Positions 8,607 through 23,456 of a stretch of DNA of 30,517 nucleotides are shown here, one piece after another. Source of the stretch: a virus; the IMG/VR virus record IMGVR_UViG_3300032282_004196, positions 1-30,517 of that record; one strand, 5' to 3'. Position 1 is the first letter of the stretch. Every line of letters begins with the position of its first letter. Position numbers and translations under genes: made by a program. The notes below the pieces were generated by a model that worked only from the letters and a program-made list of their open reading frames with translations, searched no databases and was not told the origin of the DNA.

Positions 8607-10909
8607 AATATTTCCTCTTCCTCAAAGAATACTTGCTTTTCTATATAGGCTTTAGCTTTTTCTGTCAGCTTAATACCTAAGTATTTGTGTTGTCGTTTAC
8701 CATCAACTCGAATGGCGCTTGATACTACATTTTTATCTTGTGTTGCTGCAAGGAATCTACGCTTGAAAGATAAATCATTTCCAGGATTAAGACCATGTTT
8801 TTGTGCCCAACGCTTGTAACACATGAAAGCGTGATCCTTATCTACCTCACCATCAATATCATACTCCATAACTTGGTCAATGAATGTCCCAATTGGGTTA
8901 CTCATTTCTTCCATAGTCTCGAGCAATTCTTTACCGCTGTCTGGTTGCACAAAGTATCCACCACGCTCAATCCGTCTACGCAAACCTTCCATTGCCCAAT
9001 TGAAAATACCCGACAACTCTTCCATCAACTTGTTTGATAGGTTAGTATCTTCTTTATTGTAAAAACTGTGTGTCATTTTTAGCACAATCATGCGACCTGT
9101 TAACGCATTAGAGTTTTCTGTTAACTGTAAAACCTCGTTAGAGTAAATAACAATGCGAGTAGGCAGATAACCATTCCAAGACTCTTTGTTCTTGCGGTTG
9201 ACAGTAATGGTATCACCGCCCACAATACGGAGAAGCTGAGATACAACAGCAGATCGATTTCGTTCAGGTGCTCTTGCATCAGTAAAAGAAGCGAGGAGCT
9301 TACCCAACCAAGGCTGCAGACCAAAAGTATCACAGAGTTCCTCCAATTGGGGTGCTACGGTATTATATTGACCGAGTAACGCCACCAAGATTTTGTTGAT
9401 TGTGCCCTTACCCGAACGGCGTGGCCCAATAATATTAAAAAACTTTTGTTGTGCTGTGTCGCCCGATAAAATGTAACCGAACATCTCTTGCAAACAACTA
9501 ATCGACTGCTGATCTAATTCCCATACATCATTTAAAAACTTGTGCCATAACGGGCACTGTGCCGCGGGATCATACGCAAATGGCAATGAGTTCTGTGTAT
9601 ATAAGCCCAGTGAGTGTGGCAGTAGGATGTTATCTTCTAAATGAAACAACCCATTCTTAACGCTAACCAGTTTACTCGCCTCGGGACGATTGGCACTGTA
9701 ACCATCGAGCCATACTGGTGGACGGGTGTTGGCTTGGTTCTGTAGGTGGGTCAATGCTTTGATGCCATCCATCGCACCGCTTACGCTCGCTGGATTTGGG
9801 GCGAACGCAACAATATTGCCTTTACGGTCTTGCTTTTTACATCTGTCTAAAAACTTATACAACTCGGAACGAATGGTTGACTCTTCTACTTCGGAATAGT
9901 GCGTTCCTTGGTAGCTGAAGAAGTCGCCCGAGTAATGCACTAACTTAATACCTTCTTCAGATGAAAACTTTGACTCTAAAAAAGTCTGTGCATTTTCTAA
10001 TGGTGCAGCAGACAGAATGACATCGCCTTTGGCTAGTGCCTCGTTGCGTTTGTTTGATGATATTTTGTAGGTCAATGTGCGTAGTGTTGCACCACCGCTC
10101 TTTTGACTAAAGGTTTTCCACTTGTTCTCGCATGCATTGCTTGAGTAGCTTTCTACGCTACCATCTCCGTATGACCAGCGATCCCATGCTTCGCAAGCCT
10201 CGATGTCACCTTGGAATTGATGGTGTAGGCACATCCCTACTTGCAACCAGTCTGTGTAAAAAGTAGGGTCAAAGTTCGGTAGTAGTTCTGTTTCAACCCT
10301 AGCCATGTCCCAACCATCAAGTGGCGGATTGTAATCAGCGAAGGCATCACCGGTAAGGCGTACTGTACGCTCGGGGATAATATCGGTAAAGTCTTGCAGT
10401 TCGGTTGGCAATTCACCACGAATCTTTTGACCCGTAACAGTGAAGTACCGACCCATCTTGTACACTTCAAGACCGATGCTATGGTCAACGAATGCGCTGG
10501 GGATGTCGCCCAGTGTAAATATTTTGACTCCCGTACCCGATGGACTAATTTCCATGTAGCCATCGATCTTGTTGGCAATTGCCTCTAAAGTCGGGTTGGT
10601 AAACTGAAGGGTTTGCTCATCAAAGCAATCGTCCATATCAACGCCAACAATATGGTCATCTTTGGTAAATACGAATCCAATGCCGTCAAACTTGGCGGTT
10701 AGGTATGCTGCCTCGACAGAATGAAAGTCTGTCCATGTTGATGCGTTGGTTGAACTGGCTGCCTTGCCAGAGGGCTGTACTGGCAGTTTTGACCAGCGTT
10801 TGTTTTCATTCTCGCCCACTTCCACATAATTCCACAGTGTCCAGCGTGGGATTGTGCGTAGTGCTAGAGGTATATTTTGGAATAATACGGGTAATACTTT
10901 CGGCTTCAT
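8603..10909 (-). CDS. Primase-helicase: AEP-like primase + PriCT-2 + D5/SF3 helicase
   Basis: The 768-residue protein has an N-terminal primase-polymerase domain (WTLWNYV at 23-29, KLPVQPSGKAASSTNASTW 41-59, GVDMDDC 89-95 with the metal-binding acids, SPSGTGVKIF 122-131, YFTVTG 155-160) like the NrS-1-type primases. Then comes a PriCT-2-like segment (about 204-280, TDWLQVGMCLHHQF...ACEAWDRWS), a D5_N-like region (about 310-480), and an SF3 helicase with Walker A GPRRSGKGT (495-503), FTDAR near 542 and the sensor RIVIYSNE (585-592). It would prime and unwind the phage replication fork. The gene follows a TTGCATAAGTAG element and a host-like TATAAT, in an intergenic region containing an AT-rich repeat module. 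Ribosome binding site AGAGGAAAACAG. Confidence 0.9.
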   Translation of the reverse strand: MKPKVLPVLFQNIPLALRTIPRWTLWNYVEVGENENKRWSKLPVQPSGKAASSTNASTWTDFHSVEAAYLTAKFDGIGFVFTKDDHIVGVDMDDCFDEQTLQFTNPTLEAIANKIDGYMEISPSGTGVKIFTLGDIPSAFVDHSIGLEVYKMGRYFTVTGQKIRGELPTELQDFTDIIPERTVRLTGDAFADYNPPLDGWDMARVETELLPNFDPTFYTDWLQVGMCLHHQFQGDIEACEAWDRWSYGDGSVESYSSNACENKWKTFSQKSGGATLRTLTYKISSNKRNEALAKGDVILSAAPLENAQTFLESKFSSEEGIKLVHYSGDFFSYQGTHYSEVEESTIRSELYKFLDRCKKQDRKGNIVAFAPNPASVSGAMDGIKALTHLQNQANTRPPVWLDGYSANRPEASKLVSVKNGLFHLEDNILLPHSLGLYTQNSLPFAYDPAAQCPLWHKFLNDVWELDQQSISCLQEMFGYILSGDTAQQKFFNIIGPRRSGKGTINKILVALLGQYNTVAPQLEELCDTFGLQPWLGKLLASFTDARAPERNRSAVVSQLLRIVGGDTITVNRKNKESWNGYLPTRIVIYSNEVLQLTENSNALTGRMIVLKMTHSFYNKEDTNLSNKLMEELSGIFNWAMEGLRRRIERGGYFVQPDSGKELLETMEEMSNPIGTFIDQVMEYDIDGEVDKDHAFMCYKRWAQKHGLNPGNDLSFKRRFLAATQDKNVVSSAIRVDGKRQHKYLGIKLTEKAKAYIEKQVFFEEEEIF

Positions 10910-10932: not shown

Positions 10933-10950
10933 CTACTTATGCAAATTATA
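10933..10950 (-). promoter_or_regulatory. Promoter candidate (copy c) for the primase: TATAAT joined to TTGCATAAGTAG
   Basis: Minus strand: TATAAT (10950-10945) directly followed by TTGCATAAGTAG (10944-10933), 23 nt before the primase ATG. No GGGCGG lies 14 nt upstream. Instead a 9-bp stem (TATAGGTAC / GTGCCTATA, one wobble) ends in the TATA. The two boxes may serve host and phage sigma factors in turn. Confidence 0.6.
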
Positions 10951-11011
10951 GGCACTTTTGGTGGTGTACCTATATAATTTTTAGTTATATAGCTTATTAC
11001 TTTTAGTTATG

Positions 11012-11220
11012 ATTCGCCATAGAAGACAGGGTATCCACGGTCTAAATCACTTTACCCTATATCTTTTTATTTTATTTTAATTTTAAAAAGAAATAATTCA
11101 ATATTACTATGTCTTCTATGGATACTATGGATTTGCAGTATGTTTGCACCCAGTCAACCACTACATCTAGTGCTTTTCGCAGATTATGATGCGCCGCAAT
11201 AGAGACAGGGAAGACAGGAT
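11012..11220. repeat. AT-rich module with GACAGGGTATCC / TCTTCTATGGATAC repeats (copy 1)
   Basis: This noncoding gap (10910-11233) holds AGAAGACAGGGTATCCA (11021-11037), an AT-only-like stretch (about 11061-11100), ATGTCTTCTATGGATACTAT (11109-11128) and AGAGACAGGGAAGACAGG (11201-11218). Read as its reverse complement, these appear in the same order as the module at 20.2-20.4 kb. It looks like an origin (iterons plus unwinding element) or a shared control region. No gene is seen in this gap. Confidence 0.65.
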
Positions 11221-11233
11221 GCAGTGCAGCAAT

Positions 11234-11428
11234 TTAGTTTTCCACTTCATAATCAAGCTGAGTTGCCATTTTATTAGCCCATTTTCGGAAAGCATCTCGG
11301 TTTTCACTGGTTTGCTCATCACGCTTGTCCCAATGTGCTTGGAATTGAAAATTGCCCGCAAAATCGTGAAATTCAATGCGCAGTAGGTTGCCATCTTTGT
11401 CTAATACATCCGTTGGTACTACTTTCAT
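11234..11428 (-). CDS. Conserved small phage protein (64 aa)
   Basis: Start at ATG 11428, overlapping the methyltransferase stop as ATGA and preceded by AAAGGAGTTAGC, the best site nearby. The sequence LLRIEFHDFAGNFQFQAHWD and RDEQTSENRDAFRKWANKMATQL is a pattern I have seen in other phages beside similar genes. Function unknown. Confidence 0.7.
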   Translation of the reverse strand: MKVVPTDVLDKDGNLLRIEFHDFAGNFQFQAHWDKRDEQTSENRDAFRKWANKMATQLDYEVEN

Positions 11429-12717
11429 GCTAACTCCTTTATTCGTTGTCCAATCCATTTCATTACGGGCACAGCCATACTGTTACCCATTGCTTTGTAT
11501 CTCGGCCCATCGGGGCACTTTTCCTTGATGTTGGTGTAGTCATCTGGAAAACCTTGCAACCGCTCACATTCAATGGGTGTAAGTCGGCGTACTGCCATAT
11601 TGTGTGCCATTGCCACTTGGTTGTCACCCATATGAGCACGCAAAGTTGGTGTTTTATTTTCAACAAAGCGAGCTGGATTGCCTTCACGCTTGGCAATTCC
11701 AGGTTCAAAACCATAAGCCACACCATGCACGCCCGTTGCGTTCAATGTATACATAGGTCCATTCTCGGTAAACCCAGTACCATTACCACCATTTAATGGT
11801 TGACGACCGATGGTATTTTCAGCCAACGCAATCGGCTGAACGAATGGTATGTTGCCACCACCCGTACCCCAGCTACTAGTCACAGTTTGACATACATCAC
11901 CCATCTCTTTAACCCTTGAATCCGATGGATGGTTTTCATACACCACCAATCCACGACCATCGGTCAAGTCTTGATTACCAATGCCTTTGTAATCTCTAGC
12001 AAGTAATGAGCCAATAGTGTGGTTGCCATCGGGTGTAGCAATCAAAGTTTCTGATCCGCCACCGAGATCTCCTCCAGCAGCTCGGATTGTCCCGACTCCT
12101 TCACTGTAGCCTCCAAAGCTTGATGAAGTAAAGGCGGGAGCACTTTGTTTCTGACCTTTGCTCTTCGGATTATTCCGGCGCAAGCTTTCGGGCTCAAAAA
12201 GAATCTTTGCGGGACTGTTCCAGTCTCCAAGACACCCAATAACGAAGACTCGACGACGCCGCTGTGGCACTCCAAAGTGTTGAGCGTCAAGCACCCGATA
12301 GGCCCACCCATACCCGAGTTCGCCCAGCGCCCCGAGGAAGGCACCAAAGTCCCTTCCTCCGTTTGAACTGAGGACACCTGGCACGTTTTCCCATACGCAC
12401 CACTTGGGTCTAAACTTGTCAAGAATTCCAACATAGGTAAGCATGAGGTTACCTCTTGGGTCTTCAAGCCCTTTTCGTAAACCAGCGACACTAAAGGATT
12501 GACAAGGGGTTCCACCAACGAGAAGGTCGATTGAGTCATTTAAGTTCCATTCTTTGTATTTAGTCATATCGCCCACATTGGGCACATTTGGGTAGTGAAA
12601 GTTCAACACCTCACTTGGAAATTTTTCAATCTCCGAAAACGCTACGGGTTGCCAGCCAAGGTCATGCCACGCTACTGTGGCAGCCTCAACCCCCGAGCAT
12701 ACTGATAAGTATTTCAT
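11425..12717 (-). CDS. DNA (cytosine-5) methyltransferase
   Basis: 430 residues from ATG 12717 (MKYLSVCSGVEAATVAWHDLG, motif I). Motif IV is GGTPCQSFSVAG with catalytic C72; motif VI ENVPG (110-114); motif VIII QRRRRVFVIG (152-161); motif IX RRLTPIECERLQGFPDDY; motif X MGNSMAVPVMKWIG near the end. About residues 175-370 form a long Gly/Asn-rich target-recognition region. It transfers a methyl group from S-adenosylmethionine to C5 of cytosine, probably to protect phage DNA from host restriction. No restriction endonuclease lies next to it, so it is an orphan. The frame is open 38 codons upstream of this start, but that DNA is another small gene; GAGG precedes the chosen ATG. Confidence 0.95.
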   Translation of the reverse strand: MKYLSVCSGVEAATVAWHDLGWQPVAFSEIEKFPSEVLNFHYPNVPNVGDMTKYKEWNLNDSIDLLVGGTPCQSFSVAGLRKGLEDPRGNLMLTYVGILDKFRPKWCVWENVPGVLSSNGGRDFGAFLGALGELGYGWAYRVLDAQHFGVPQRRRRVFVIGCLGDWNSPAKILFEPESLRRNNPKSKGQKQSAPAFTSSSFGGYSEGVGTIRAAGGDLGGGSETLIATPDGNHTIGSLLARDYKGIGNQDLTDGRGLVVYENHPSDSRVKEMGDVCQTVTSSWGTGGGNIPFVQPIALAENTIGRQPLNGGNGTGFTENGPMYTLNATGVHGVAYGFEPGIAKREGNPARFVENKTPTLRAHMGDNQVAMAHNMAVRRLTPIECERLQGFPDDYTNIKEKCPDGPRYKAMGNSMAVPVMKWIGQRIKELA

Positions 12718-12893
12718 ATGTGTGCCTCGCCTAATTGTGTGAATGCCTCTAAGAATCGATTCACTTTTACTTGCGGGTTGACTTTGACCCATAAGGTCGA
12801 GTCTCTTTTGGCATGGTTGTACGCATCCCACTTACTATCGTGGCATCGCACAATCCCCATTGCATCACGCACTTCATATCTAAATTGTTTCAT
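12714..12893 (-). CDS. Small basic protein before the methyltransferase (59 aa)
   Basis: ATG 12893 overlaps the stop of the upstream gene (ATGA) and its own stop overlaps the methyltransferase ATG (ATATGA). It begins MKQFRYEVRDAMGIVRCHDSK and contains WDAYNHAKRDSTLWVKVNP. Coupling on both sides and an AGGAGAA site support expression. Function unknown. Confidence 0.65.
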   Translation of the reverse strand: MKQFRYEVRDAMGIVRCHDSKWDAYNHAKRDSTLWVKVNPQVKVNRFLEAFTQLGEAHI

Positions 12894-13225
12894 TTCTCCT
12901 CCTTGAAGAAAGTGTCTAATGTTTCAACTTCGTTCGGTTCATCCCAGTTATCTGAATCTCCATAATCGCCTCGGGTTGCCCTTAAGCGTTCTTCATGGCG
13001 GTATCTGGGTTCAATCGCCCACCATGCAGCCGATGCCTCTTTGTATTCAATCCATTCATCGTTCATCACGAAGAGCGGATGGTTCAATCCATTGATATGT
13101 ACACTATCAGTAAAATCACGATGAGGTATATAAGCATTTCTAGTATTCTCTTTGGTTTTTACTAATTTGACTCTGTCACGAGCACGAATAAATCTATTGT
13201 ATGCACGAATCTGTTCTTCAGTCAT
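12890..13225 (-). CDS. Hypothetical conserved-looking protein (111 aa)
   Basis: Charged, with many aromatic residues: YNRFIRARDRVKLVKTKENTRNAYIPHRD, HPLFVMNDEWIEYKEASAAWWAIEPRYRHEERL, then an acidic tail (DYGDSDNWDEPNEVE). It overlaps the sigma gene by 8 nt. I do not recognise a family. Its position directly after the sigma gene in the same transcript could point to an associated role, but that is only position. Confidence 0.6.
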   Translation of the reverse strand: MTEEQIRAYNRFIRARDRVKLVKTKENTRNAYIPHRDFTDSVHINGLNHPLFVMNDEWIEYKEASAAWWAIEPRYRHEERLRATRGDYGDSDNWDEPNEVETLDTFFKEEK

Positions 13226-13823
13226 CGTATCCTTCTTGTTCTAAATGTTCGGAATTAAAAATCTCTAAGCTGACTGGCTCTTTACTGATTATGGAATTAA
13301 TGTAAGCAATGCGAGTGGTTGACACCCCTAGTTTATCAGCAAGCTCTTTATCAGAAGGCTGGCGCTGGAGGGCTTGGCTGAGCACACGCTCGTTGTATTT
13401 GATTCTACGGATCTCTTCAGTAATGTTTACTGGCAATCGAATAATGTTTTTGGTATTGGCAACACCCCGATTGACATCGAAGTGTATGAATTTTTTGGCA
13501 TAGGAGGCAAACCGGATTCTACCCATCGGTTTCCAGGAACGAGCTGCGTTGAGCAAGGCCTCGTTGCCGAATGATAAAAGGTCTTCCATCGGCATATTGG
13601 AATGCGCCCAGTTCGGCATCTTTTTAATGACCGAGACTACAAAGCGAAGGTTGTGGGTTACTAGTTTATCGAGGGCTGCCTCATCACCTTGAGCGATCAG
13701 AATCCCCAGCTTTGCCTCTTCTTCAAGGGTTAGCGTGGGGATCTTGTACAACGACTGCATATAATCAGTCAACGCATTTTTGCGGTTTCTCAATGGGGGT
13801 TCTCCAATCGGATTGGGGGTCAC
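13218..13823 (-). CDS. Phage-encoded sigma-70-family factor lacking region 4
   Basis: 201 residues from a GTG start. Region 1.2 is DYMQSLYKIPTLTLEEEAKL through AQGDEAALDKLV (about 19-56); region 2 is HNLRFVVSVIKKMP...DLLSFGNEALLNAARSW..... RIRFASYAKKFIHFDVNRGV (57-121), including the helix that reads the -10 box; region 3 is VNITEEIRRIKYNERVLSQALQRQPSDKELADKLGVS (132-168). The chain ends after EPVSLEIFNSEHLEQEGYDD, where region 4, the -35 reader, would start. T4 gp55 also lacks a canonical region 4. It should bind host RNA polymerase core and redirect it, plausibly to the TTGCATAAGTAG sites, which resemble a long -10 element. Family assignment is firm; target promoters are inferred. Confidence 0.9.
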   Translation of the reverse strand: MTPNPIGEPPLRNRKNALTDYMQSLYKIPTLTLEEEAKLGILIAQGDEAALDKLVTHNLRFVVSVIKKMPNWAHSNMPMEDLLSFGNEALLNAARSWKPMGRIRFASYAKKFIHFDVNRGVANTKNIIRLPVNITEEIRRIKYNERVLSQALQRQPSDKELADKLGVSTTRIAYINSIISKEPVSLEIFNSEHLEQEGYDD

Positions 13824-13825
13824 CC

Positions 13826-13834
13826 ATTATAGCA
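13826..13834 (-). promoter_or_regulatory. Extended -10 host-type promoter candidate for the sigma gene
   Basis: TGCTATAAT, a perfect extended -10, ends 2 nt before the GTG of the sigma gene. The -35 position (TTTATT at 17 nt) is poor, as is tolerated for extended -10 promoters. Transcription would start almost at the GTG, making a leaderless mRNA, for which the absence of a ribosome binding site fits. It could be chance in the 3' end of the neighbouring gene. Confidence 0.4.
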
Positions 13835-14117
13835 TATTTCTTTTTAGAATAAAGTCTTTCTTTTCCATGTAACGCACATTGCCTTCGGAATCTTGGAAGT
13901 AAATCACCTTGTTTCCAAACCAATAACACCCATAAGATTTTTCATTCTTTTGGTTAGTAGCGTATGCCTCGGGTAAAGTTTTATTGTATCGGCAAGCGTT
14001 CTCAGTTAACATCGTCCACCCACCAATTGCATTGGGAGCATAGGCAAAGTAATCATCAGCGTGTGCTGGATGGAAAGAAGTTAGGATGAACGCAACACTT
14101 AGGGTTTTTAGAATCAT
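13827..14117 (-). CDS. Small exported protein with signal peptide (96 aa)
   Basis: Start at ATG 14117, an ATGA overlap; an ATG two codons upstream is possible. MILKTLSVAFILTSFHPAHA is a clear Sec signal peptide (basic residue, hydrophobic core, AHA-DD cleavage site near residue 20). The mature part is about 76 residues with two cysteines (in NACRY and YGCYWFG), able to form a disulphide in the periplasm. It is the only visible exported protein in the early region. Function unknown; roles in superinfection exclusion or envelope modification are guesses. Confidence 0.75.
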   Translation of the reverse strand: MILKTLSVAFILTSFHPAHADDYFAYAPNAIGGWTMLTENACRYNKTLPEAYATNQKNEKSYGCYWFGNKVIYFQDSEGNVRYMEKKDFILKRNML

Positions 14118-14401
14118 GTGCACTCTCGCTCGTTGATATGTTGGGCTACATCATACCAATAAGCTACCACTTTGTCACGCAACTCTTGGGGCGCGGTTAC
14201 TGGATCGATATCTTGGAGTTCTTCAGCGAGCCCCAACTGAGAGATTGCCTCTGCCCAGTTCGGTGCAAAAAATGGGTAGCATCTACCATCGGGTTTGAGA
14301 TCTGCCTCCACCCAGTAAGCAATCTCTTCTGCCCTTGAATCTTGCTCATCGTAGCCATCCTGAATTCCGGATTCTAGCCAATTGTCGTACATATTACCCA
14401 T
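14114..14401 (-). CDS. Acidic hypothetical protein (95 aa)
   Basis: MGNMYDNWLESGIQDGYDEQD... with WVEADLKPDGRCYPFFAPNWAEAISQLGLAEELQDIDPVTAPQELRDKVVAYW. Start ATG 14401 has AAGGAG seven nt upstream; it overlaps the gene before it by 8 nt. Acidic, tryptophan-rich. Family not recognised. Confidence 0.65.
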   Translation of the reverse strand: MGNMYDNWLESGIQDGYDEQDSRAEEIAYWVEADLKPDGRCYPFFAPNWAEAISQLGLAEELQDIDPVTAPQELRDKVVAYWYDVAQHINERECT

Positions 14402-14603
14402 TGTTCTGCTCCTTCATAAATTGTTCTGCCTCTTCCAAAGTAAATACATTACACCCATTACGGATATCCCACAAGCACTCATTGGTAGTCGTGTCGATTA
14501 CCTTATAACCCTCCTCCGATACTTGTTCTAATCGGTGTTTTGATTTGGGCTGCAGTAGGGTTGCAATAAAATGATCTGCGAATTGTTGTTGCCAGTTCAT
14601 CAT
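14394..14603 (-). CDS. Hypothetical protein (69 aa)
   Basis: MMNWQQQFADHFIATLLQPKSKHRLEQVSEEGYKVIDTTTNECLWDIRNGCNVFTLEEAEQFM. The start overlaps the preceding stop (ATGA) after GGAGTTAGT; either of two adjacent ATGs could be used. Two cysteines. Looks like a small alpha-beta domain. Function unknown. Confidence 0.6.
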   Translation of the reverse strand: MMNWQQQFADHFIATLLQPKSKHRLEQVSEEGYKVIDTTTNECLWDIRNGCNVFTLEEAEQFMKEQNNG

Positions 14604-14755
14604 ACTAACTCCACATCGTTAACAAACAAGTAACCCTTGATAAAACCAGTTACAAACAAAATGCGATCTTCGTCGGAAAAAGGTTTGTCCTCTTTTTCCT
14701 CCCAACTGTAGAAAATCTCATTACCTTTTTGCCAAAGAGTTGAATAGTCCATCAT
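14600..14755 (-). CDS. Hypothetical protein (51 aa)
   Basis: Start at ATG 14755, overlapping the stop upstream as ATGA after AGGAGAAAAGGC. MMDYSTLWQKGNEIFYSWEEK, then DRILFVTGFIKGYLFVND. The frame is open further upstream but that lies inside the preceding gene. Function unknown. Confidence 0.6.
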   Translation of the reverse strand: MMDYSTLWQKGNEIFYSWEEKEDKPFSDEDRILFVTGFIKGYLFVNDVELV

Positions 14756-15066
14756 GCCTTTTCTCCTAAGTGAATAGTTAATGTTACTGGGGTATCGTCT
14801 ACATTGTTTTCCAAAAGCCAAAGCACCATAGAGTCCACATCATCAAAGCGAATTTTGTGGTCGAGTGCCTGGTTTTGGTCGGGCTGCGGAAGGCTATCAG
14901 TTCCGCAAACAAGGCAAGTGTTACCCTCGTGCGGGGTTCTGTCTTCGCATGGGGTACAGTCACGCATCGAGTCAGCCTTGAGAATGCCAGCCTCGACTGC
15001 ATCATAGACTGCGTACTGCCCACCTTGGTTGTAAATCTCTACTGCCTTATCGTAATTACTCTTCAT
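14752..15066 (-). CDS. Conserved phage protein with CxxC pairs (104 aa)
   Basis: Start at ATG 15066 with GGAG seven nt upstream. NYDKAVEIYNQGGQYAVYDAVEAGILKADS is followed by DCTPCEDRTPHEGNTCLVCGTDS, two CxxC pairs about 12 residues apart that make a zinc-ribbon-like knuckle. The combination of a YDAV.AG helix and the CxxC...CLVCG motif recurs in phages. A protein- or nucleic-acid-binding role is likely but unproven. Confidence 0.7.
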   Translation of the reverse strand: MKSNYDKAVEIYNQGGQYAVYDAVEAGILKADSMRDCTPCEDRTPHEGNTCLVCGTDSLPQPDQNQALDHKIRFDDVDSMVLWLLENNVDDTPVTLTIHLGEKA

Positions 15067-15202
15067 CATTTTCTCCAATAAAATGTTTACACACCCGATT
15101 TAAAATTGCTACTGCCTCTGCATAATTGATTTCACCTTCATCATACTGAGTGTAAATATCAGTTACTGAGAAAAACAAATCATCAACATTGTTGGTAATC
15201 AT
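15056..15202 (-). CDS. Small acidic protein (48 aa)
   Basis: ATG 15202 with AAGGGGCAAGC upstream opens a 48-residue frame, MITNNVDDLFFSVTDIYTQYDEGEINYAEAVAILNRVCKHFIGENDEE. Coupled to the gene before it (ATGA) and overlapping the next by 11 nt. Amphipathic helices; function unknown. Confidence 0.6.
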   Translation of the reverse strand: MITNNVDDLFFSVTDIYTQYDEGEINYAEAVAILNRVCKHFIGENDEE

Positions 15203-15369
15203 GCTTGCCCCTTGTTTAGTCTTGAATACAGTTCGTTTACTTTACTACTCATCTCTTGATAAAACTCTTTCTTGGTATCGTAGCCTACATCTTTATAGGT
15301 GTGACCCAAAGCCAAATCATTAAAATCAAATAGCATCTCTGTTACTAGCTCTTCTACATATTTGTTCAT
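15199..15369 (-). CDS. Small acidic protein (56 aa)
   Basis: ATG 15369 after AAGGACACAAT, ATGA overlap on both sides. MNKYVEELVTEMLFDFNDLALGHTYKDVGYDTKKEFYQEMSSKVNELYSRL: helical, charged. Its general size and composition resemble the 48-residue neighbour. Function unknown. Confidence 0.6.
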   Translation of the reverse strand: MNKYVEELVTEMLFDFNDLALGHTYKDVGYDTKKEFYQEMSSKVNELYSRLNKGQA

Positions 15370-15578
15370 ATTGTGTCCTTATCTCTATAGGGAATGTTTA
15401 ATTGGTACTCGACTACATATACATCGTCCTTGTACCACCAGTTAGGCTCGCACTTGTATTCTTTACCATGATCCCGCAAACCCTTGATGAGGGTTGCCTT
15501 TGCTTTTTCGGGGTCATCGCTAAATGCCTCGAATGAGAAATTGCGACTGTCATAAAACGCTCCGAAGATTGCTTTCAT
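15366..15578 (-). CDS. Conserved phage protein (70 aa)
   Basis: IFGAFYDSRNFSFEAFSDDPEKAKATLIKGLRDHGKEY and NWWYKDDVYVVEYQLNIPYRDKD follow a pattern (FGAF....FSFEA....P.KA...LIKGLR.H...Y....NW......V...... PYRD) known in short phage proteins. It is a small alpha-beta fold. Function unknown. Confidence 0.7.
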   Translation of the reverse strand: MKAIFGAFYDSRNFSFEAFSDDPEKAKATLIKGLRDHGKEYKCEPNWWYKDDVYVVEYQLNIPYRDKDTI

Positions 15579-15748
15579 AATTTCACCTTAATGATTTCTA
15601 AATGTTCAGTCACAAATTTGCCCATCTCTTCACCATACTCGATGCCATGATCTGAGGCACATTGTTTTAGTGCTGATGTGGGTTCAATATCAAAACGCAA
15701 CATCATGTAAAGTGCATCCTCAAAAGCTTGTTCGTATTTATTAGTCAT
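15575..15748 (-). CDS. Hypothetical protein (57 aa)
   Basis: Start placed at ATG 15748 (MTNKYEQAFEDALYMMLRFDIEPTSALKQCASDHGIEYGEEMGKFV), seven nt after GGAG; an ATG one codon upstream is equally reachable. Overlaps the previous gene by 8 nt. Function unknown. Confidence 0.6.
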   Translation of the reverse strand: MTNKYEQAFEDALYMMLRFDIEPTSALKQCASDHGIEYGEEMGKFVTEHLEIIKVKL

Positions 15749-15923
15749 CATCAAACTCCACATCAAACCATGCAATCTTTACATCGTTGTCGTTGTACAC
15801 AACACCATATGCATCACCACCCAAAATACGAGTTTGGATTTGTTTCATTATGTTGAAAAAATAAATCTGTTTATTGTTGTCAAATAAATCATCATCTGCC
15901 AACATCTCGATCATCATTTTCAT
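15741..15923 (-). CDS. Hypothetical acidic protein (60 aa)
   Basis: ATG 15923 overlaps the upstream stop (ATGA). MKMMIEMLADDDLFDNNKQIYFFNIMKQIQTRILGGDAYGVVYNDNDVKIAWFDVEFDDD; the end is a beta strand and an acidic tail. Function unknown. Confidence 0.6.
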   Translation of the reverse strand: MKMMIEMLADDDLFDNNKQIYFFNIMKQIQTRILGGDAYGVVYNDNDVKIAWFDVEFDDD

Positions 15924-16117
15924 TCTGTTTTCTCCACATAGGTTTCACAGATACCAAAATCAAACATACGCATGATGATGGCATTCGTACAATCCAATCC
16001 CAAGTAACACGCATTGTTCAATCCCATTTTGACATCGGTGCGTGTCAATGCTGGGTTCTCAAGTAAATACTCATCGATGTAAAAATCATCAATGTCCACT
16101 ACTAAATTAAATTTCAT
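15920..16117 (-). CDS. Hypothetical protein (65 aa), first gene after a repeat-bearing gap
   Basis: Start at ATG 16117 with a strong GGGAGGTAGT site. MKFNLVVDIDDFYIDEYLLENPALTRTDVKMGLNNACYLGLDCTNAIIMRMF. The 90-nt gap upstream contains repeat R1, so this gene may head a transcript. Function unknown. Confidence 0.65.
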   Translation of the reverse strand: MKFNLVVDIDDFYIDEYLLENPALTRTDVKMGLNNACYLGLDCTNAIIMRMFDFGICETYVEKTE

Positions 16118-16195
16118 ACTACCTCCCTTGTAAAAGTTCAATCGTACTGGTACTACAACAAAAGTACATAGGTAGTTACCCTAGGTCGTGGCCCC

Positions 16196-16213
16196 AGGGT
16201 AAACCCCTATTGA
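16196..16213 (-). repeat. Short palindromic repeat R1
   Basis: TCAATAGGGGTTTACCCT on the minus strand, in opposite orientation to the other clear copies. It overlaps the last codons and TAG stop of the gene at 16207-16380. Confidence 0.75.
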
Positions 16214-16380
16214 CTCTTATAAAAATGTCTTTCGGCATTTCTCCATCCCGATACAAAATCAATACAACTGGCTTTTAAATCGGAAGAAAAAAGTTGCTGC
16301 CCATCGAGAGTCACAATAAATCCTCCACGATGATCAGTTCGAGGTTCGATAATGAGGTGTGCCATATCAGCGATATTCAT
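16207..16380 (-). CDS. Hypothetical protein (57 aa)
   Basis: ATG 16380 overlaps the upstream stop (ATGA). MNIADMAHLIIEPRTDHRGGFIVTLDGQQLFSSDLKASCIDFVSGWRNAERHF: looks like a beta-beta-alpha unit, similar in composition to short DUF-type phage proteins. Its stop lies in repeat R1. Confidence 0.6.
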   Translation of the reverse strand: MNIADMAHLIIEPRTDHRGGFIVTLDGQQLFSSDLKASCIDFVSGWRNAERHFYKSQ

Positions 16381-16577
16381 ACTTCTACCTCCGCTACTCG
16401 CCAATCGTGGGCATCGTAGTCAATCATAAAACCCTCTTCGACTGCCAATGCCATCGACTCGATGTGATCTTGCAATTCAAGTTCTGCCTCTTCCTTGCTA
16501 TCGTACAAGGTTGGAATATCTTCGGGGCATTCCCACCCTTCATTAAAAAACAATGCTTGGATTTGCCATTTTTTCAT
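16377..16577 (-). CDS. Conserved-looking phage protein (66 aa)
   Basis: Start ATG 16577 (ATGA overlap, GGAGGATAGC). MKKWQIQALFFNEGWECPEDIPTLYDSKEEAELELQDHI...EEGFMIDYDAHDWRVAEVEV: the beta strand - turn - helix - beta strand layout with a final WRVAEV strand is common among small phage proteins. Function unknown. Confidence 0.65.
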   Translation of the reverse strand: MKKWQIQALFFNEGWECPEDIPTLYDSKEEAELELQDHIESMALAVEEGFMIDYDAHDWRVAEVEV

Positions 16578-16774
16578 GCTATCCTCCGCACCCAATGCTC
16601 ACCGCTTTCATTAAATTCTGCACGATCGCCCACCTCAAGCATATCGACAATGTGAATTTCTTCGTCACCATACCCACGCAATTCATTAAAAAATTCTAAA
16701 TCGTAATAAGCAAGGGTTGACTTTTTATCTGCATGGCGATATCCATCACCCCAAAAGCATTCAAACTGTTTCAT
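16574..16774 (-). CDS. Conserved phage protein (66 aa)
   Basis: MKQFECFWGDGYRHADKKSTLAYYDLEFFNELRGYGDEEIHIVDMLEVGDRAEF: the start (FECFWGDG..HADKKSTL.YY...FFNE..GY...DI..I..L..G) is a pattern I recognise from several other phages. Function unknown. Confidence 0.7.
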   Translation of the reverse strand: MKQFECFWGDGYRHADKKSTLAYYDLEFFNELRGYGDEEIHIVDMLEVGDRAEFNESGEHWVRRIA

Positions 16775-16934
16775 CGCTCAATACCTCCATTGTTTCGGTG
16801 ATTAGTTTTCTATTGTGGTTTCTAAAACAATGCTTTAATACTTCCACCATTAAGTTATTTTGCAATGCCTTAAGATAATCATCTGATACTTCGACATACA
16901 TCGATATATCAATTTTTACTTTATTTTTTGCCAT
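16761..16934 (-). CDS. Hypothetical protein (57 aa)
   Basis: ATG 16934 with GGGAG seven nt upstream opens a 57-residue frame, MAKNKVKIDISMYVEVSDDYLKALQNNLMVEVLKHCFRNHNRKLITETMEVL. It overlaps the next gene by 14 nt. Two beta strands and a helix; function unknown. Confidence 0.6.
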   Translation of the reverse strand: MAKNKVKIDISMYVEVSDDYLKALQNNLMVEVLKHCFRNHNRKLITETMEVLSDETV

Positions 16935-16954
16935 CTCAACTCCCTAATTTTGTG

Positions 16955-16997
16955 TGATCAATATTGATCCAGTAAAGCACTCTCAGAATGCTTTACT
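16955..16997. other. Intergenic hairpin and adjacent palindrome
   Basis: AGTAAAGCA (16971-16979) pairs with TGCTTTACT (16989-16997), a 9-bp stem with a 9-nt loop. Next to it is the palindrome GATCAATATTGATC (about 16956-16969). No T-run follows on either strand, so this may be a processing or operator site rather than a terminator. Confidence 0.5.
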
Positions 16998-17005
16998 AGG
17001 CAACA

Positions 17006-17455
17006 TTACACAAGTTCGTACTTACCCTTACCGAAGGTTTTATCTAAATGTGCAACTGCTAAATCCATATCGTGGGTTTTAATGGTGCGGAATGAATCCT
17101 CACTATCGTCTGTCAATCGAAACAAAATGCCCTTTTTACGATGTTTAGACATCTCATACTCTTCCAACAAAATACCAATGGCGGTATCAGTATCGTGATC
17201 AAAAAATTCTGATCCATTGATTGCACCCCAAGATGATTTCCATTGCCCTAATGATTTGACATAGTCATCCCATATGGTTTTGAATGGTGACTCTTTCCAA
17301 TTTGAGTCTGAGTCGGCAAAGGTCATATCAATACATCCACCATTGCCATCGTTATGCACCCATGCAAACTTTTTATTGTTGAGATAGAGATTGAATTGAT
17401 ATCCACCTCCGTCTTCAGTTTGCCAATGTTTAAAAGCTTTAATTTGAAAATTCAT
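17006..17455 (-). CDS. Hypothetical protein (149 aa)
   Basis: Start at ATG 17455, an ATGA overlap; the frame is open 8 codons upstream inside the neighbour. MNFQIKAFKHWQTEDGGGYQFNLYLNNKKFAWVHNDGNGGCIDMTFADSDSNW... DTDTAIGILLEEYEMSKHRKKGILFRL. Similar in layout to short phage proteins with a beta-rich domain and a K-rich strand. No family name known to me. It ends in front of a hairpin. Confidence 0.65.
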   Translation of the reverse strand: MNFQIKAFKHWQTEDGGGYQFNLYLNNKKFAWVHNDGNGGCIDMTFADSDSNWKESPFKTIWDDYVKSLGQWKSSWGAINGSEFFDHDTDTAIGILLEEYEMSKHRKKGILFRLTDDSEDSFRTIKTHDMDLAVAHLDKTFGKGKYELV

Positions 17456-17745
17456 GCTATCTCCCAAGTGTTTATCCAAATACGATTTGCATCACAAAAA
17501 TCATAGAGTTCAGACAACAATATGTCGATCTCTTCCACATTATCGCAATACTTTAAATTGTCGATAGTGTCCTCTGTGGAATAATCATCCTCAAACATAT
17601 CGGGATGAGCATCCATAAATTTTGAAAACTTCTGATAAATATCCATTGCAATTTTTTGGATGGGTTCATCGGTTACGATTTGACCCCCATCGTCAAATTT
17701 GCTAAAGATATCTGACAGATCAATTTGATATTTCCAATTTGCCAT
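17452..17745 (-). CDS. Conserved-looking acidic phage protein (97 aa)
   Basis: MANWKYQIDLSDIFSKFDD... ends NVEEIDILLSELYDFCDANRIWINTWEIA. The W.Y.IDL.DI start and the final LYD..D..R.WI segment recall short phage proteins that begin WKH.V.L.D and end D..W...YDWAD..R.WI. Acidic, helical. Ribosome binding site GGAGGATTGAATT. A terminator and repeat R2 lie just upstream, so this gene may head an operon. Confidence 0.65.
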   Translation of the reverse strand: MANWKYQIDLSDIFSKFDDGGQIVTDEPIQKIAMDIYQKFSKFMDAHPDMFEDDYSTEDTIDNLKYCDNVEEIDILLSELYDFCDANRIWINTWEIA

Positions 17746-17787
17746 AATTCAATCCTCCATTGTTTAAATTAAACTACTGACTCCAAC

Positions 17788-17813
17788 AAAAACCACTCTA
17801 TAGAATGGTTTTT
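17788..17813 (-). terminator. Terminator hairpin after the 57-aa gene
   Basis: AAAAACCA (17788-17795) pairs with TGGTTTTT (17806-17813) with a 10-nt loop; on the minus strand the arm ends in TTTTTG. It lies 36 nt after the stop at 17849. The stem is weak in GC. Confidence 0.6.
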
Positions 17814-17819
17814 AGTAGG

Positions 17820-17837
17820 TCAATAGGGGTTTACCCT
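17820..17837 (+). repeat. Short palindromic repeat R2
   Basis: TCAATAGGGGTTTACCCT, perfect consensus, between two minus-strand genes. On the minus strand it reads AGGGTAAACCCCTATTGA followed by CC, which supplies a TTGACC box upstream of the gene at 17745. Confidence 0.8.
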
Positions 17838-17848
17838 AGTTAGGCTGC

Positions 17849-18022
17849 CTAGGGGTTGATCAATCCCTCTTCCAATAATTGGTTGAGGGTTCGACCAAAA
17901 AACCCTTGTAACCCATAACCTATGCGAGTGTCATGCAAGTATTGCCATGCCTCTAATACTTGCTCTTCTGAGTCGCATTCAATAAAACCCTCTGCAATCC
18001 CTACTGCTTGAAAATTATCCAT
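17849..18022 (-). CDS. Conserved small phage protein (57 aa)
   Basis: ATG 18022 opens MDNFQAVGIAEGFIECDSEEQVLEAWQYLHDTRIGYGLQGFFGRTLNQLLEEGLINP. The pattern AEGF(I)E......EAWQ.L.DTG....LQG.FGR....L...G.I is familiar from many phages. Function unknown. It ends at repeat R2 and the terminator. Spacing of 2 nt from the gene upstream indicates one transcript. Confidence 0.75.
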   Translation of the reverse strand: MDNFQAVGIAEGFIECDSEEQVLEAWQYLHDTRIGYGLQGFFGRTLNQLLEEGLINP

Positions 18023-18024
18023 AA

Positions 18025-18264
18025 TTAATTACCCTTCAATAAGTTTTTTAATTCAAGTTTTAATACTTTGGCATCATTGCCTCTAAAAGTGCTGGCATTA
18101 GCTAAAAAATACATAATGACATTTTTTGCATCATCATAAATATAAGTGTCATTAATGTTATCTAGATATTCCATTGCATCTAAATAGGGTTTTGCTCCGA
18201 AATATGGTTTAATCCATACCTTTTTAATATCTCTCGCAATGCTTGAGATTGATCTATTTTCCAT
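18025..18264 (-). CDS. Conserved small phage protein (79 aa)
   Basis: Start at ATG 18264, preceded by CGGGAGAATAAACTA. MENRSISSIARDIKKVWIKPYFGAKPYLDAMEYLDNINDTYIYDDAKNVIMYFLANASTFRGNDAKVLKLELKNLLK: the SI..IAR.I...W...YFGA.PYL.AM..L......Y..D.AK....YFL.NA...RG..A...K.ELK pattern is a recurrent one in phages of Gram-negative bacteria. Function unknown. First gene downstream of repeats R3 and R4. Confidence 0.75.
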   Translation of the reverse strand: MENRSISSIARDIKKVWIKPYFGAKPYLDAMEYLDNINDTYIYDDAKNVIMYFLANASTFRGNDAKVLKLELKNLLKGN

Positions 18265-18331
18265 TAGTTTATTCTCCCGTAATATAGGCACAATTGCCCT
18301 ATATCTATCTTATCGGAATGGTATAAAATTG

Positions 18332-18353
18332 ATATTAGGGGTTTCCCTAATAT
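18332..18353. repeat. Short palindromic repeat R3 (long-arm form)
   Basis: ATATTAGGG - GTTT - CCCTAATAT: 9-bp perfect arms with a 4-nt centre, the strongest palindrome of the family. Confidence 0.7.
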
Positions 18354-18370
18354 GACCCAAAATGCAAACC

Positions 18371-18384
18371 TAGGGTTTACCCTA
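18371..18384. repeat. Short palindromic repeat R4
   Basis: TAGGG-TTTA-CCCTA, 5-bp perfect arms, 13 nt before the left 107-bp direct repeat. Confidence 0.7.
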
Positions 18385-18396
18385 ATATATGCCTAG

Positions 18397-18503
18397 AATC
18401 GATTTAACGGGGTTTTGGCGGGTTTTTTAGGTTTAGCTCACAAGTGCATTAGCACCTAGTCAATCGTTCAATCTGAGCGGTTTTGATCGTTAGGGTTTAC
18501 CCT
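18397..18503 (+). repeat. 107-bp imperfect direct repeat, left copy
   Basis: It aligns without gaps to 19470-19576. Shared blocks: AATCGATTTAA.GGGGTTTT, GGCGGGTTTT, GCATTAGC at offset 50, then TGAGCGG..., GATCGTTAGGGTTTACCCT. The last block is repeat R5. The 415-nt gap 18265-18679 has no gene; it contains R3-R7, this repeat, a 10-bp-arm palindrome at 18510-18530 (ATTGCTTAAA / TTTAAGCAAT) and a terminator. Confidence 0.8.
18491..18503 (+). repeat. Short palindromic repeat R5
   Basis: TAGGG-TTTA-CCCT at the end of the left 107-bp repeat, in the context GATCGTTAGGGTTTACCCT, the same as R9. Confidence 0.7.
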
Positions 18504-18539
18504 TACCGGATTGCTTAAAATTTAAGCAATTCGATTGTG

Positions 18540-18557
18540 TCAATAGGGGTTTACCCT
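18540..18557 (+). repeat. Short palindromic repeat R6
   Basis: TCAATAGGGGTTTACCCT, perfect consensus. On the minus strand it runs into TTGACA, a perfect -35 box, but no good -10 follows at 16-18 nt. Confidence 0.8.
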
Positions 18558-18590
18558 TAGGCCCGATTGATCATAAAATTTTGGATTTGA

Positions 18591-18607
18591 CAATAGGGGT
18601 TTACCCT
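18591..18607 (+). repeat. Short palindromic repeat R7
   Basis: CAATAGGGGTTTACCCT, preceded by A in place of T. Confidence 0.8.
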
Positions 18608-18631
18608 GGGTTGTGGCTGCCACGCAACAAT

Positions 18632-18660
18632 CAATAAAAAACCCGCCTATTGGCGGGTTA
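18632..18660 (-). terminator. Strong terminator after the GP88-like gene
   Basis: AACCCGCC (18640-18647) pairs with GGCGGGTT (18652-18659) around TATT; the minus strand continues TTTTTTATTG. It follows the stop at 18680 by about 20 nt, so the GP88-like gene is a single-gene transcript. Confidence 0.9.
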
Positions 18661-18679
18661 CTTGTGATAGTAGATTGAT

Positions 18680-19327
18680 CTAGTGATATTTATAGGATAC
18701 ATTAGGGATTGATTTATCCCAACAATTGCGACAATCTAAGCATTTTCCGCCTTGTTTATAACTAGGGCATTCTGTACCCATTGCATTATTAGCTAGATGT
18801 ACTGTAGATGTATGCTCGAATTTTGGGGGTTTACTATCCCGTTTTGTTGCGGATACTCTCACAATCAAATTATTAGGGAATGCTCCAAAATTATCTAAAT
18901 ATTGTTTTACTAGGTTACTCTCTTTTGTTGGTATCCAAAATTGAGTATTAGGGCAATTATCCGCAACGCTCACAATATTAAGTAAGTGCTGGAATGACTG
19001 GATATCTCCACTATCATGCCACCTAAAATATTGCATTGCTTGTTTATTAATAATAAAAGACATTGCCTCCACCCATTGCGGGTTAGTTAAGCTTTGATAT
19101 CTCCGCTCATGAGCAATATCTATAGTTTTAGCATAGCGGATATAATTGCCTTTTAATGCATAGCAATTGTGGCAAACTGTACCCTCTATTTTGGCAAGCT
19201 TTGATCCAGTATTGCAACGCTTTGCACTTATTGAATAGCTAGAACATGGCATTTTACTAGGTGCTGATAACCCGCCAATAATATCCATTGCTTGTTTAAT
19301 GGTTTTAATTAATTGCTTTTGTTGCAT
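18680..19327 (-). CDS. GP88-like cysteine-rich phage protein (215 aa)
   Basis: Cysteines fall in recognisable pairs: KMPCSSYSISAKRCNTGSKL, EGTVCHNCYALKGNY, and C-terminal TECPSYKQGGKCLDCRNCW. Between them come QWVEAMSFII, YFRWHDSGDIQS, PNTQFWIPTKES and PNNLIVRVSAT. These segments match the GP88-like phage family (named from a mycobacteriophage gene product). CxxCYA and the FRWHDSGD motif are its hallmarks; the cysteines may bind metal or an Fe-S cluster, which is inference. It is a monocistronic gene in the middle of repeat-rich noncoding DNA, with its own GGAGG site and terminator, and flanked by the 107-bp direct repeats. TTGCAA - 17 nt - TATTAG upstream could be its promoter, adjacent to repeat R8. 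Confidence 0.75.
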   Translation of the reverse strand: MQQKQLIKTIKQAMDIIGGLSAPSKMPCSSYSISAKRCNTGSKLAKIEGTVCHNCYALKGNYIRYAKTIDIAHERRYQSLTNPQWVEAMSFIINKQAMQYFRWHDSGDIQSFQHLLNIVSVADNCPNTQFWIPTKESNLVKQYLDNFGAFPNNLIVRVSATKRDSKPPKFEHTSTVHLANNAMGTECPSYKQGGKCLDCRNCWDKSIPNVSYKYH

Positions 19328-19404
19328 AAATCCTCCGATAGTTAGTTAATTAGGATAATGCTTACCTAATACTCTATATTTTAGACACTTGCAACAATAT
19401 CTAT

Positions 19405-19419
19405 ATAGGTGTTTACCCT
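19405..19419. repeat. Short palindromic repeat R8
   Basis: ATAGGTGTTTACCCT, one arm mismatched, upstream of the GP88-like gene's putative promoter. Confidence 0.6.
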
Positions 19420-19469
19420 AAGGCCATGACATACAATTGCATTGCTTAAAAAATAGGCAATGCCTCTAA

Positions 19470-19576
19470 AATCGATTTAATGGGGTTTTGGCGGGTTTTG
19501 TTGCGTGTTGATCTACTTGCATTAGCTCATTGTTGATTGTGCAATATGAGCGGATCTGATCGTTAGGGTTTACCCT
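19470..19576 (+). repeat. 107-bp imperfect direct repeat, right copy
   Basis: Partner of 18397-18503, ungapped, 1073 bp apart, ending in repeat R9. Both are preceded by a short palindromic repeat (R4 or R8), so the duplicated unit is a control region rather than random DNA. Confidence 0.8.
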
Positions 19577-19577
19577 A
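19564..19577 (+). repeat. Short palindromic repeat R9
   Basis: TAGGG-TTTA-CCCTA at the end of the right 107-bp repeat. Confidence 0.7.
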
Positions 19578-19617
19578 GGTTGTTGCGTGTAAAAATAGGG
19601 CAAATTGTGCAGCAAAA

Positions 19618-19634
19618 CAATAGGTGTTTACCCT
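19618..19634 (+). repeat. Short palindromic repeat R10
   Basis: CAATAGGTGTTTACCCT, one mismatch to consensus. Confidence 0.65.
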
Positions 19635-19664
19635 TAGTTGCCGGAAAACAACACTATTGGATTG

Positions 19665-19682
19665 TCAATAGGGGTTTACCCT
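19665..19682 (+). repeat. Short palindromic repeat R11
   Basis: TCAATAGGGGTTTACCCT, perfect consensus; last copy toward the structural genes. On the minus strand it runs into TTGACA, as does R6. Confidence 0.8.
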
Positions 19683-19776
19683 AAGGCCATATTGTTGCAT
19701 TGCATCATTGTCGCATTGTTGGGAAATTGTGCCCACCCCCTCCCACTCTCTCACGCACGCATAAACAGACTGCTAA

Positions 19777-19992
19777 GTTAGTAAGCACTAACATTATCAG
19801 CGTGACAAATTGTTGCGTTGCAATATGTTGCGTTGCACCAAGTTAGTAGCCGCTAACCTGGCAGTTAGTAAGCGCTCACTAACTTAGCAGATTGTTGCGT
19901 TGCAATATGTTGCGGTGCAACAAGTTAGTAGTCGCTAACTTGTAAGTGAGCACTCACTTGCAGCCTGGTTAGTAAGCACTCACTCACTTGTC
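19777..19992. repeat. Interleaved inverted and direct repeats (GTTAG/CTAAC cluster)
   Basis: Palindromes: GTTAGT-AAGC-ACTAAC (19777-19792), GTTAG-TAGCCG-CTAAC (19842-19857), GTTAGT-N8-ACTAAC (19864-19883), CAAGTTAG-TAGTCG-CTAACTTG region (19921-19942), AAGTGAG-CA-CTCACTT (19944-19959). A 51-bp direct repeat (19809-19859 and 19891-19941, few mismatches) starting ATTGTTGCGTTGCAATATGT carries two of them. This dense arrangement suggests protein-bound iterons, such as an origin or partition-like site. The gap 19328-20511 has no normal-sized gene. Confidence 0.7.
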
Positions 19993-20137
19993 ATATTGCT
20001 GCGTTGTTTCCTTGCAACATGGCTGGGCGGTGTTGTTTTGACGCCACACCCCCAAACTTGACTCCCTAACCCCGAACCGGGGGAGGCTCCAACCAAAAGC
20101 AAGTTCTTTGCATTTCCGTTGTAATTTTTTATTTTTT

Positions 20138-20165
20138 TTGTAAATTATGAGAAGACTTGTATAGA
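20138..20165 (+). promoter_or_regulatory. Weak host-type promoter candidate toward the structural genes
   Basis: TTGTAA - 16 nt - TATAGA, directly after a T/A-rich stretch. Only a moderate match to sigma-70 consensus; listed because it reads into the plus-strand operon. Confidence 0.3.
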
Positions 20166-20476
20166 ACTAGGCTCAACGCAACACTAAGTTCTATACACTC
20201 CCTGTCTTCCCTGTCTCGGTTCTATACACTCCCTGTCTCCTAAATTGTCAATTAGAACAAAGACTTAGTGTTTTAAAAGACAGGGTATCCATAGTATCCA
20301 TAGTATTTTTTAATTTATTTAATTTATTAAATAAAATAAAAGAGATATCTTGGAGGTAATATGCGTTTTGACCCTGTCTTCTATGGATACCCTGTCTTTT
20401 AAAGTAGAATTTACTTTGGAATCAATGGGATAGCCGAGCCATAGAATGTATAGAACTACGATGAACGCAACAGTAG
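20159..20476. repeat. AT-rich repeat module (copy 2), inverted relative to 11.0-11.2 kb
   Basis: In order: GTATAGAACTA...AACGCAACA (20159-20185), GTTCTATACACTCCCTGTCT twice (from about 20189 and 20219), CCTGTCTTCCCTGTCTC (20201-20217), GACAGGGTATCCATAGTATC (about 20279-20298), a run of A/T (20303-20341), CCCTGTCTTCTATGGATACC (20372-20391), and again GTATAGAACTA...AACGCAACA (20448-20473). The order CCTGTCTTCCCTGTCTC, ATCCATAGTATCCATAG, AT stretch, CCTGTCTTCTATGG equals the reverse complement of the module next to the primase gene. Confidence 0.7.
20361..20402 (+). CDS. Possible 13-residue leader peptide
   Basis: GGAGGTAAT followed by ATG gives MRFDPVFYGYPVF and a TAA stop. The ribosome binding site is nearly perfect, but most of the codons lie in the repeated CCCTGTCTTCTATGGATACC sequence, so the reading frame may be incidental. 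A function as a leader peptide is only a possibility. Confidence 0.25.
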   Translation: MRFDPVFYGYPVF

Positions 20477-20507
20477 GGCGGTTGTTGTATAGAGTTTGCA
20501 TAAGTAG
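20476..20507 (+). promoter_or_regulatory. Phage promoter candidate (copy d): GGGCGG - 14 nt - TTGCATAAGTAG
   Basis: GGGCGG 20476-20481, 14 nt, TTGCATAAGTAG 20496-20507, then only GTGT before the ATG at 20512. No ribosome binding site fits in that space, so the transcript is predicted to be leaderless or nearly so. This is the first promoter of the structural operon. Confidence 0.75.
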
Positions 20508-23425: not shown

Positions 23426-23456
23426 GGCGGACACCCCGCTATTTTTGCATAAGTAG
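23425..23456 (+). promoter_or_regulatory. Phage promoter candidate (copy e): GGGCGG - 14 nt - TTGCATAAGTAG
   Basis: GGGCGG 23425-23430, 14 nt, TTGCATAAGTAG 23445-23456; the ATG follows after 8 nt. GCGG...CCGC with TTTTT (about 23426-23446) also forms a small terminator-like hairpin between the two boxes. Confidence 0.75.

Follow-up and report, generated by a model that had tools for sequence, protein, structure and literature searches.

Paired modules of nine-nucleotide repeats in a freshwater phage group as probable replication origins read by the phage primase-helicase

Two inverted copies of an A/T-centred repeat module in a phage genome fragment are probably paired iteron-type replication origins read by the phage's own primase-helicase, or else an origin together with an origin-like second cis site. 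At the sequence level this is supported by the anatomy of the modules, their pairing, their fixed positions, the identity of the units within one phage, the enrichment of host-factor sites and the co-variation of the units with the wing of the primase-helicase, and from these we infer binding, melting, initiation and a division of work between the two sites. The main doubt is whether the sites initiate replication or regulate two operons, and the binding partner, the primase-helicase, is better supported than the function of the modules.

The stretch of DNA analysed, here called the window, is a complete IMG/VR record of 30,517 bases and represents a fragment of a tailed phage. Its minus strand encodes a DUF2800 exonuclease, an SNF2-type helicase, a 768-aa primase-helicase, a C5 cytosine methyltransferase and a sigma70-like factor, and its plus strand, from 20.4 kb, encodes the terminase, the portal and other head genes. 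No near-identical phage was found for the window among named phage records, and many freshwater relatives were present among viral contigs, whose scans gave 188 primase and 147 terminase candidates (the best 80 of each were retained). A search of genome contigs returned two relatives only, both inside beta-proteobacterial MAGs, which is a hint, and only that, of a beta-proteobacterial host. By terminase, the nearest named phages were MW202545 and Caulobacter GB2A, and no comparable module was found in the scanned stretches of these two or of Salmonella phage Sergei.

Each copy in the window is a module of about 120 bp, in which an A/T tract lies between two inverted arrays of three 9-bp units each, the gap between the arrays being 66 nt in module A and 68 nt in module B. 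Both modules are anatomically complete, with six units, spacer and A/T tract, and are made up as follows.

11014..11133, minus strand: module A core, A/T tract between inverted 3-unit arrays, upstream of the primase gene
11014..11040, plus strand: module A array 1, TCGCCATAG AAGACAGGG TATCCACGG
11041..11057, plus strand: module A spacer of 17 nt, TCTAAATCACTTTACCC, which recurs on one side of the module in relatives
about 11058..11106, no strand: module A A/T tract, the proposed unwinding element
11107..11133, minus strand: module A array 2, three inverted units, AATCCATAG TATCCATAG AAGACATAG
11202..11218, minus strand: outlying unit pair near module A, CCTGTCTTCCCTGTCTC
20277..20398, plus strand: module B core, A/T tract between inverted 3-unit arrays, upstream of the terminase operon
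20277..20303, plus strand: module B array 1, AAGACAGGG TATCCATAG TATCCATAG
20304..20351, no strand: module B A/T tract, the proposed unwinding element
20352..20371, minus strand: module B spacer, TCAAAACGCATATTACCTCC
20372..20398, minus strand: module B array 2, three inverted units, AAGACAGGG TATCCATAG AAGACAGGG
20200..20240, plus strand: outlying units of module B, CCCTGTCTTCCCTGTCTC and CCCTGTCTCC

A sequence-only reading of this DNA had described colinear, inverted blocks shared by two loci, one beside the primase-helicase gene and the other at the divide between the minus and plus operons. Indeed, every named block was located: CCTGTCTTCCCTGTCTC at 20201-20217 (plus) and 11202-11218 (minus), this pair being two extra outlying units, ATCCATAGTATCCATAG at 20287-20303 (plus) and 11116-11132 (minus), and CCTGTCTTCTATGG at 20373-20386 (plus) and 11017-11030 (minus). 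Module A precedes the primase-helicase gene, and module B the terminase operon, at 20.4 kb. Beyond what that reading described, the blocks are 9-nt units in register. Five exact inverted matches of at least 17 nt (with at least 6 G/C and more than 200 nt apart) occur in the window, where 100 dinucleotide shuffles averaged 0.02 and never gave more than 1, which rules out a chance origin of the repeats. Tandem short repeats beside an A/T-rich element, one of the marks of an iteron-type origin, are found in these modules.

The pair recurs across the group. Fourteen records, the window included, hold both the primase and the small-terminase region, arranged as usual, and every one of them carries exactly two modules at fixed places, A upstream of the primase-helicase gene and B upstream of the small terminase region, and among the relatives the two are 5-12 kb apart. 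Long records were also scanned without bias for A/T islands flanked by inverted or 9-periodic sequence, and this likewise gave two modules per genome. Where a module was missing, its region was absent from the record or the record broke within module B's A/T tract (G005, G013, G018); in G008 the module is present below the scan threshold. The anatomy upstream of the primase gene is kept in nearly all the relatives, as far as a primase identity of about 62%, and of 70 primase-proximal modules 66 scored best at period 9 when periods 5 to 14 were compared; the unit finder returned no module above threshold at 27 of 115 primase loci. According to the sequence-only reading, copies scattered over many gaps would have spoken against a special pair. 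In the 14 records, a genome's own units cluster at the modules or no more than about 200 nt away from them, with a lone exception of 5 hits at G007:33956, and the scattered-repeat reading is ruled out apart from this small exception.

The units themselves differ between phages: relatives of the window carry TTGTCAGGG, TAGTCACAG, TAGTACTAG, TTGCTAGGG, TTGCAAGGG, TTGTCACAC and others. The 9-nt unit varies among phages and agrees at both sites of one phage, 8-mers common to A and B outside the A/T tract averaging 26.6 within a genome versus 3.7 between genomes. Such agreement is expected if one trans-acting protein reads both sites. Some close relatives have units in common, as expected.

These comparisons bear on two other explanations. 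As the two copies in the window are inverted, the sequence-only reading had also considered an invertible or exchangeable segment of 9 kb bounded by them. We give this almost no credence: the relative orientation of modules A and B is not conserved among relatives, and the enclosed sigma-factor gene lies on the strand of the primase gene in 16 of 16 other records in which both were found, a constancy that speaks against inversion. It is also very improbable that the modules serve packaging (pac/cos) or partition, with the site at B, next to the small terminase gene, and a duplicate at A. Module B does always adjoin the terminase operon, and some contigs break inside it; these breaks, however, fall in homopolymer-like A/T runs and reflect assembly difficulty, module A, built the same way, lies far from the terminase genes, and the units co-vary with the wing of the primase, as described below.

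The putative reader of the units, under the paired-origin interpretation, is the primase-helicase, whose relevant parts are the following.

8603..10909, minus strand: primase-helicase gene, 768 aa, with a primase domain matching the AEP type, PriCT-2, D5_N, an SF3-type helicase region and a C-terminal winged helix
8666..8896, minus strand: codons of the C-terminal winged helix, residues 672-748, the proposed origin-binding domain
8645..8737, minus strand: codons 725-755, the wing and following residues, co-varying with the 9-nt unit

In the profile search the primase matched 7ola, 6k9a and 6a9w, which we take to be phage and SaPI primases of the AEP type, and gave no Toprim hit; the best PDB sequence match was 7ola, a homologous primase-helicase of known structure. 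Structure prediction placed a winged helix at residues 672-748 of the full-length model, in which the helicase core was poorly predicted, and the isolated C-terminal domain, modelled along with those of 33 relatives, had a mean pLDDT of 83. The top structural match of this domain was RFX1-DBD (Z 10.3, rmsd 1.8 over 76 residues); RFX5 (Z 10.1), the P4 origin-binding domain 1ka8 (Z 8.4, rmsd 2.9 over 84 residues) and the tail of African swine fever virus PrimPol (Z 7.5) also matched. A published comparison links the PrimPol tail, the P4 domain and RFX1 (PMC10516667). RFX1 is an exceptional winged helix whose wing reads the major groove (PMC4333399); it offers the closest fold, with a DNA-reading wing, yet it is a eukaryotic transcription factor, and the evidence does not support a common origin with the phage domain. 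Among the relatives there is almost no variation in the helix that an ordinary winged helix would use for recognition. On the basis of these models we propose that the C-terminal winged helix is the origin-binding domain, a common fold not being proof of function.

Co-variation was measured with phased units from 30-66 sequences, by comparing sliding stretches of the whole primase with unit change after removal of overall divergence. The best-correlated stretch was always the wing, at residues 725-749 or 731-755 (r 0.35-0.39), and the top single residue was 732. This signal was reached in 0 of 1000 permutations at 97, 90 and 85% dereplication and in 0 and 3 of 1000 at 80%, and the maximum at the wing persisted when only pairs under 72% identity were used; r is moderate, and shared ancestry is incompletely removed by permutation. 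An earlier and cruder measure of unit similarity was significant with 59 sequences, and with 21 dereplicated sequences it again had the wing as its top stretch, not significantly. The test set comprised the primase and six neighbours. At the same loci the neighbours gave r of at most 0.17 in any stretch versus 0.27-0.39 for the wing, and as candidate unit binders the 184-aa, 93-aa, 74-aa and 111-aa ORFs, the sigma factor and the SNF2 helicase were rejected, as they showed no co-variation signal. The wing signal is indirect evidence that the unit may be specific to its cognate initiator.

Analogous modules occur in cultured phages. The Flyfo podovirus Tbat2_2, whose primase is about 30% identical to that of the window, has two A/T-centred copies about 14 kb apart (92.7% identical over 398 nt), and Morganella phage Henu15 and three Proteus phages have at least two module places each; no annotated feature lies under the best module match in the Morganella and Proteus phage records. 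The Proteus phage modules share the skeleton of those in Tbat2_2 and the Morganella phages and differ in the unit: Tbat2_2 repeats the word GTTGCAG where Proteus phage RS10pmA, a Gorganvirus, has TGTTTCA at matching relative positions. The RS10pmA modules are located near 12.3-12.6 kb and 50.0-50.2 kb. The primases of these two phages are 87% identical, with identical recognition helices and a different wing strand. The open-access papers covered do not describe paired origins for Gorganvirus, an absence that is weak evidence.

Across the relatives, sites for host factors are concentrated around the modules. Within 300 nt of them we counted 33 sites fitting WATCAANNNNTTR, taken as the IHF consensus, spread over 22 of the 33 regions; dinucleotide shuffles gave 1.7 (maximum 6), and the excess over this expectation is about 20-fold. 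Perfect DnaA boxes (TTATCCACA) numbered 9, in 4 of the 33 module regions, against 0.18 in shuffles, and four of them stand in tandem alongside module A of one relative (G012). Near the window's own modules there is no perfect IHF or DnaA match. GC skew, named as a check by the sequence-only reading, has its extremes consistently at neither module; they follow gene direction, which confounds the measure.

The modules might instead be operators, bound by the primase or another regulator, that govern the two divergent operons, primase and terminase, and play no part in initiation. This reading, close to the shared regulator sites suggested earlier, draws on the place of both window modules in promoter regions upstream of operons and on a promoter-like TTGCATAAGTAG motif between module and gene, and the co-variation of the wing would also be compatible with autoregulation of the primase. 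However, TTGCATAAGTAG heads four other operons that have no module, the upstream module of two relatives (G013 and G018) is about 3.4 kb from the primase gene, and in the Proteus and Tbat2_2 phages neither module adjoins the primase gene, other gaps being used, which argues against a mere operator of that gene. The long A/T tract between inverted arrays and the IHF and DnaA sites are origin-like as well, and we consider the operator reading unlikely. Paired replication origins, another suggestion of the sequence-only reading, are the best supported, by the fixed pair, the iteron arrays flanking the A/T tract, the IHF and DnaA sites in relatives and the wing co-variation.

Phage P4 needs two separate cis sites, ori and crr, with the same repeats, and two separate sites with the same repeats are found here too. 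By this precedent, one module could be the true origin and the other an initiator-binding partner site, as crr is for the P4 ori. The two modules of one phage are indeed unlike in their outlying units and flanks, but the anatomy is complete at both; we rate this possibility somewhat short of even, as a sub-variant of the paired-origin explanation and not its opposite. The 9-nt lattice, the inverted arrays around an A/T tract and the full module at both sites are unlike P4. The P4 initiator is a multidomain primase-helicase whose C-terminal winged-helix origin-binding domain binds the origin repeats (PMC4234260), and the window enzyme resembles it in its predicted C-terminal winged helix, with a fold matching 1ka8. 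Its primase domain matches the AEP type, in contrast to the Toprim-type primase of P4 alpha (PMC4234260). For SaPI Rep/ori and staphylococcal SF3 initiators (SCCmec Cch2), the C-terminal domain of the helicase recognises iterons at the cognate origin (PMC7581432). The putative initiator here likewise has, by prediction, an AEP primase, an SF3 helicase and a C-terminal DNA-binding domain. The SaPI origin, however, lies downstream of the helicase gene, whereas here one module precedes the primase gene and the other the terminase operon, and specificity is ascribed there to the whole C-terminal domain and here to the wing. By analogy, the modules may work like the P4 and SaPI origins, and they are not filed in either class: the P4 type would call for a Toprim-type primase domain and the SaPI type for modules downstream of the initiator gene, and the window has neither. 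Iteron plasmid origins such as those of RK2 and pSC101 have tandem iterons, an A/T-rich unwinding element and IHF and DnaA sites; the first two have counterparts in the window, and the host-factor sites are concentrated near the modules of relatives. Unlike the modules, these plasmid origins use RepA/TrfA-type initiators, not primase-helicases, and one-sided direct-repeat iterons.

If the modules are paired origins, the primase-helicase would bind the 9-bp units through its C-terminal winged helix, and its sequence specificity would come mostly from the wing. Once loaded on both inverted arrays, copies of the protein would form helicase rings around the A/T tract, while host IHF would bend the DNA and DnaA would help in some relatives. 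The A/T tract would then be melted and the DNA unwound outward, and priming would follow. We suggest, tentatively and with the balance rather against it, that origin identity is a 9-bp lattice read mainly by the RFX-like wing of the primase-helicase, wing and units diversifying together at the two sites and possibly preventing cross-firing among co-infecting relatives.

In conclusion, these modules provide predicted origins for a large group of uncultured freshwater phages and for cultured Proteus and Morganella phages. The dozens of natural initiator-iteron pairs are a set from which the recognition code of the wing could be read, and why some phage replicons, P4 included, have two origin-like cis sites is now a testable question.

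The motif (T)TTGCATAAGTAG was found at six operon heads of the window, a short distance ahead of the gene starts, and the phage also encodes a sigma70-like factor:

2502-2514, minus strand, motif copy
3810-3821, minus strand, motif copy
10933-10945, minus strand, motif copy
20495-20507, plus strand, motif copy
23444-23456, plus strand, motif copy
27496-27508, plus strand, motif copy
13218-13823, minus strand, sigma70-like factor gene

Because the phage carries this factor, (T)TTGCATAAGTAG may be the promoter element that its own sigma70-like factor uses. In relatives, TTTGCATTAGTA-like forms of the motif lie upstream of the primase gene.

Between the primase gene and module A, ATAACTTTTAGTTAT-like palindromes occupy 10972-11010, and in other relatives TTTCACATTGTGAAA-like palindromes replace them in this interval. 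Near the modules of some relatives (upstream of primase at loci L041 and L049) there are AATGATAATGATT-like stretches that resemble the Fur box consensus.

A second repeat family, GTCAATAGGGGTTTACCCT, is dispersed across the gaps of the accessory region, with others besides these:

16196-16214, minus strand, GTCAATAGGGGTTTACCCT copy
17819-17837, GTCAATAGGGGTTTACCCT copy
18539-18557, GTCAATAGGGGTTTACCCT copy
18589-18608, GTCAATAGGGGTTTACCCT copy
19664-19682, GTCAATAGGGGTTTACCCT copy

Ahead of module B, within a stretch of about 870 nt that lacks a long ORF, five AGTTAGTAAGCACTAAC-like copies are clustered with GTTGCGTTGCAATAT repeats (19764-19983). TTCTATACA repeats flank module B on both sides, and the word also occurs close to module B of the relative G019:

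20158-20166, minus strand, TTCTATACA repeat
20189-20197, plus strand, TTCTATACA repeat
20220-20228, plus strand, TTCTATACA repeat
20447-20455, minus strand, TTCTATACA repeat

Large-terminase families are matched by each of two neighbouring ORFs, 21015-21992 and 21983-23425, a pattern that looks like a split gene.

Contig ends of three metagenomic relatives (G005, G013 and G018) fall within module B, in its A/T tract; assembly may therefore be the reason why a record begins or stops at this point. The only relatives from genome collections, L372 and L373, are both contigs in beta-proteobacterial MAGs, a membership that weakly hints at a beta-proteobacterial host.
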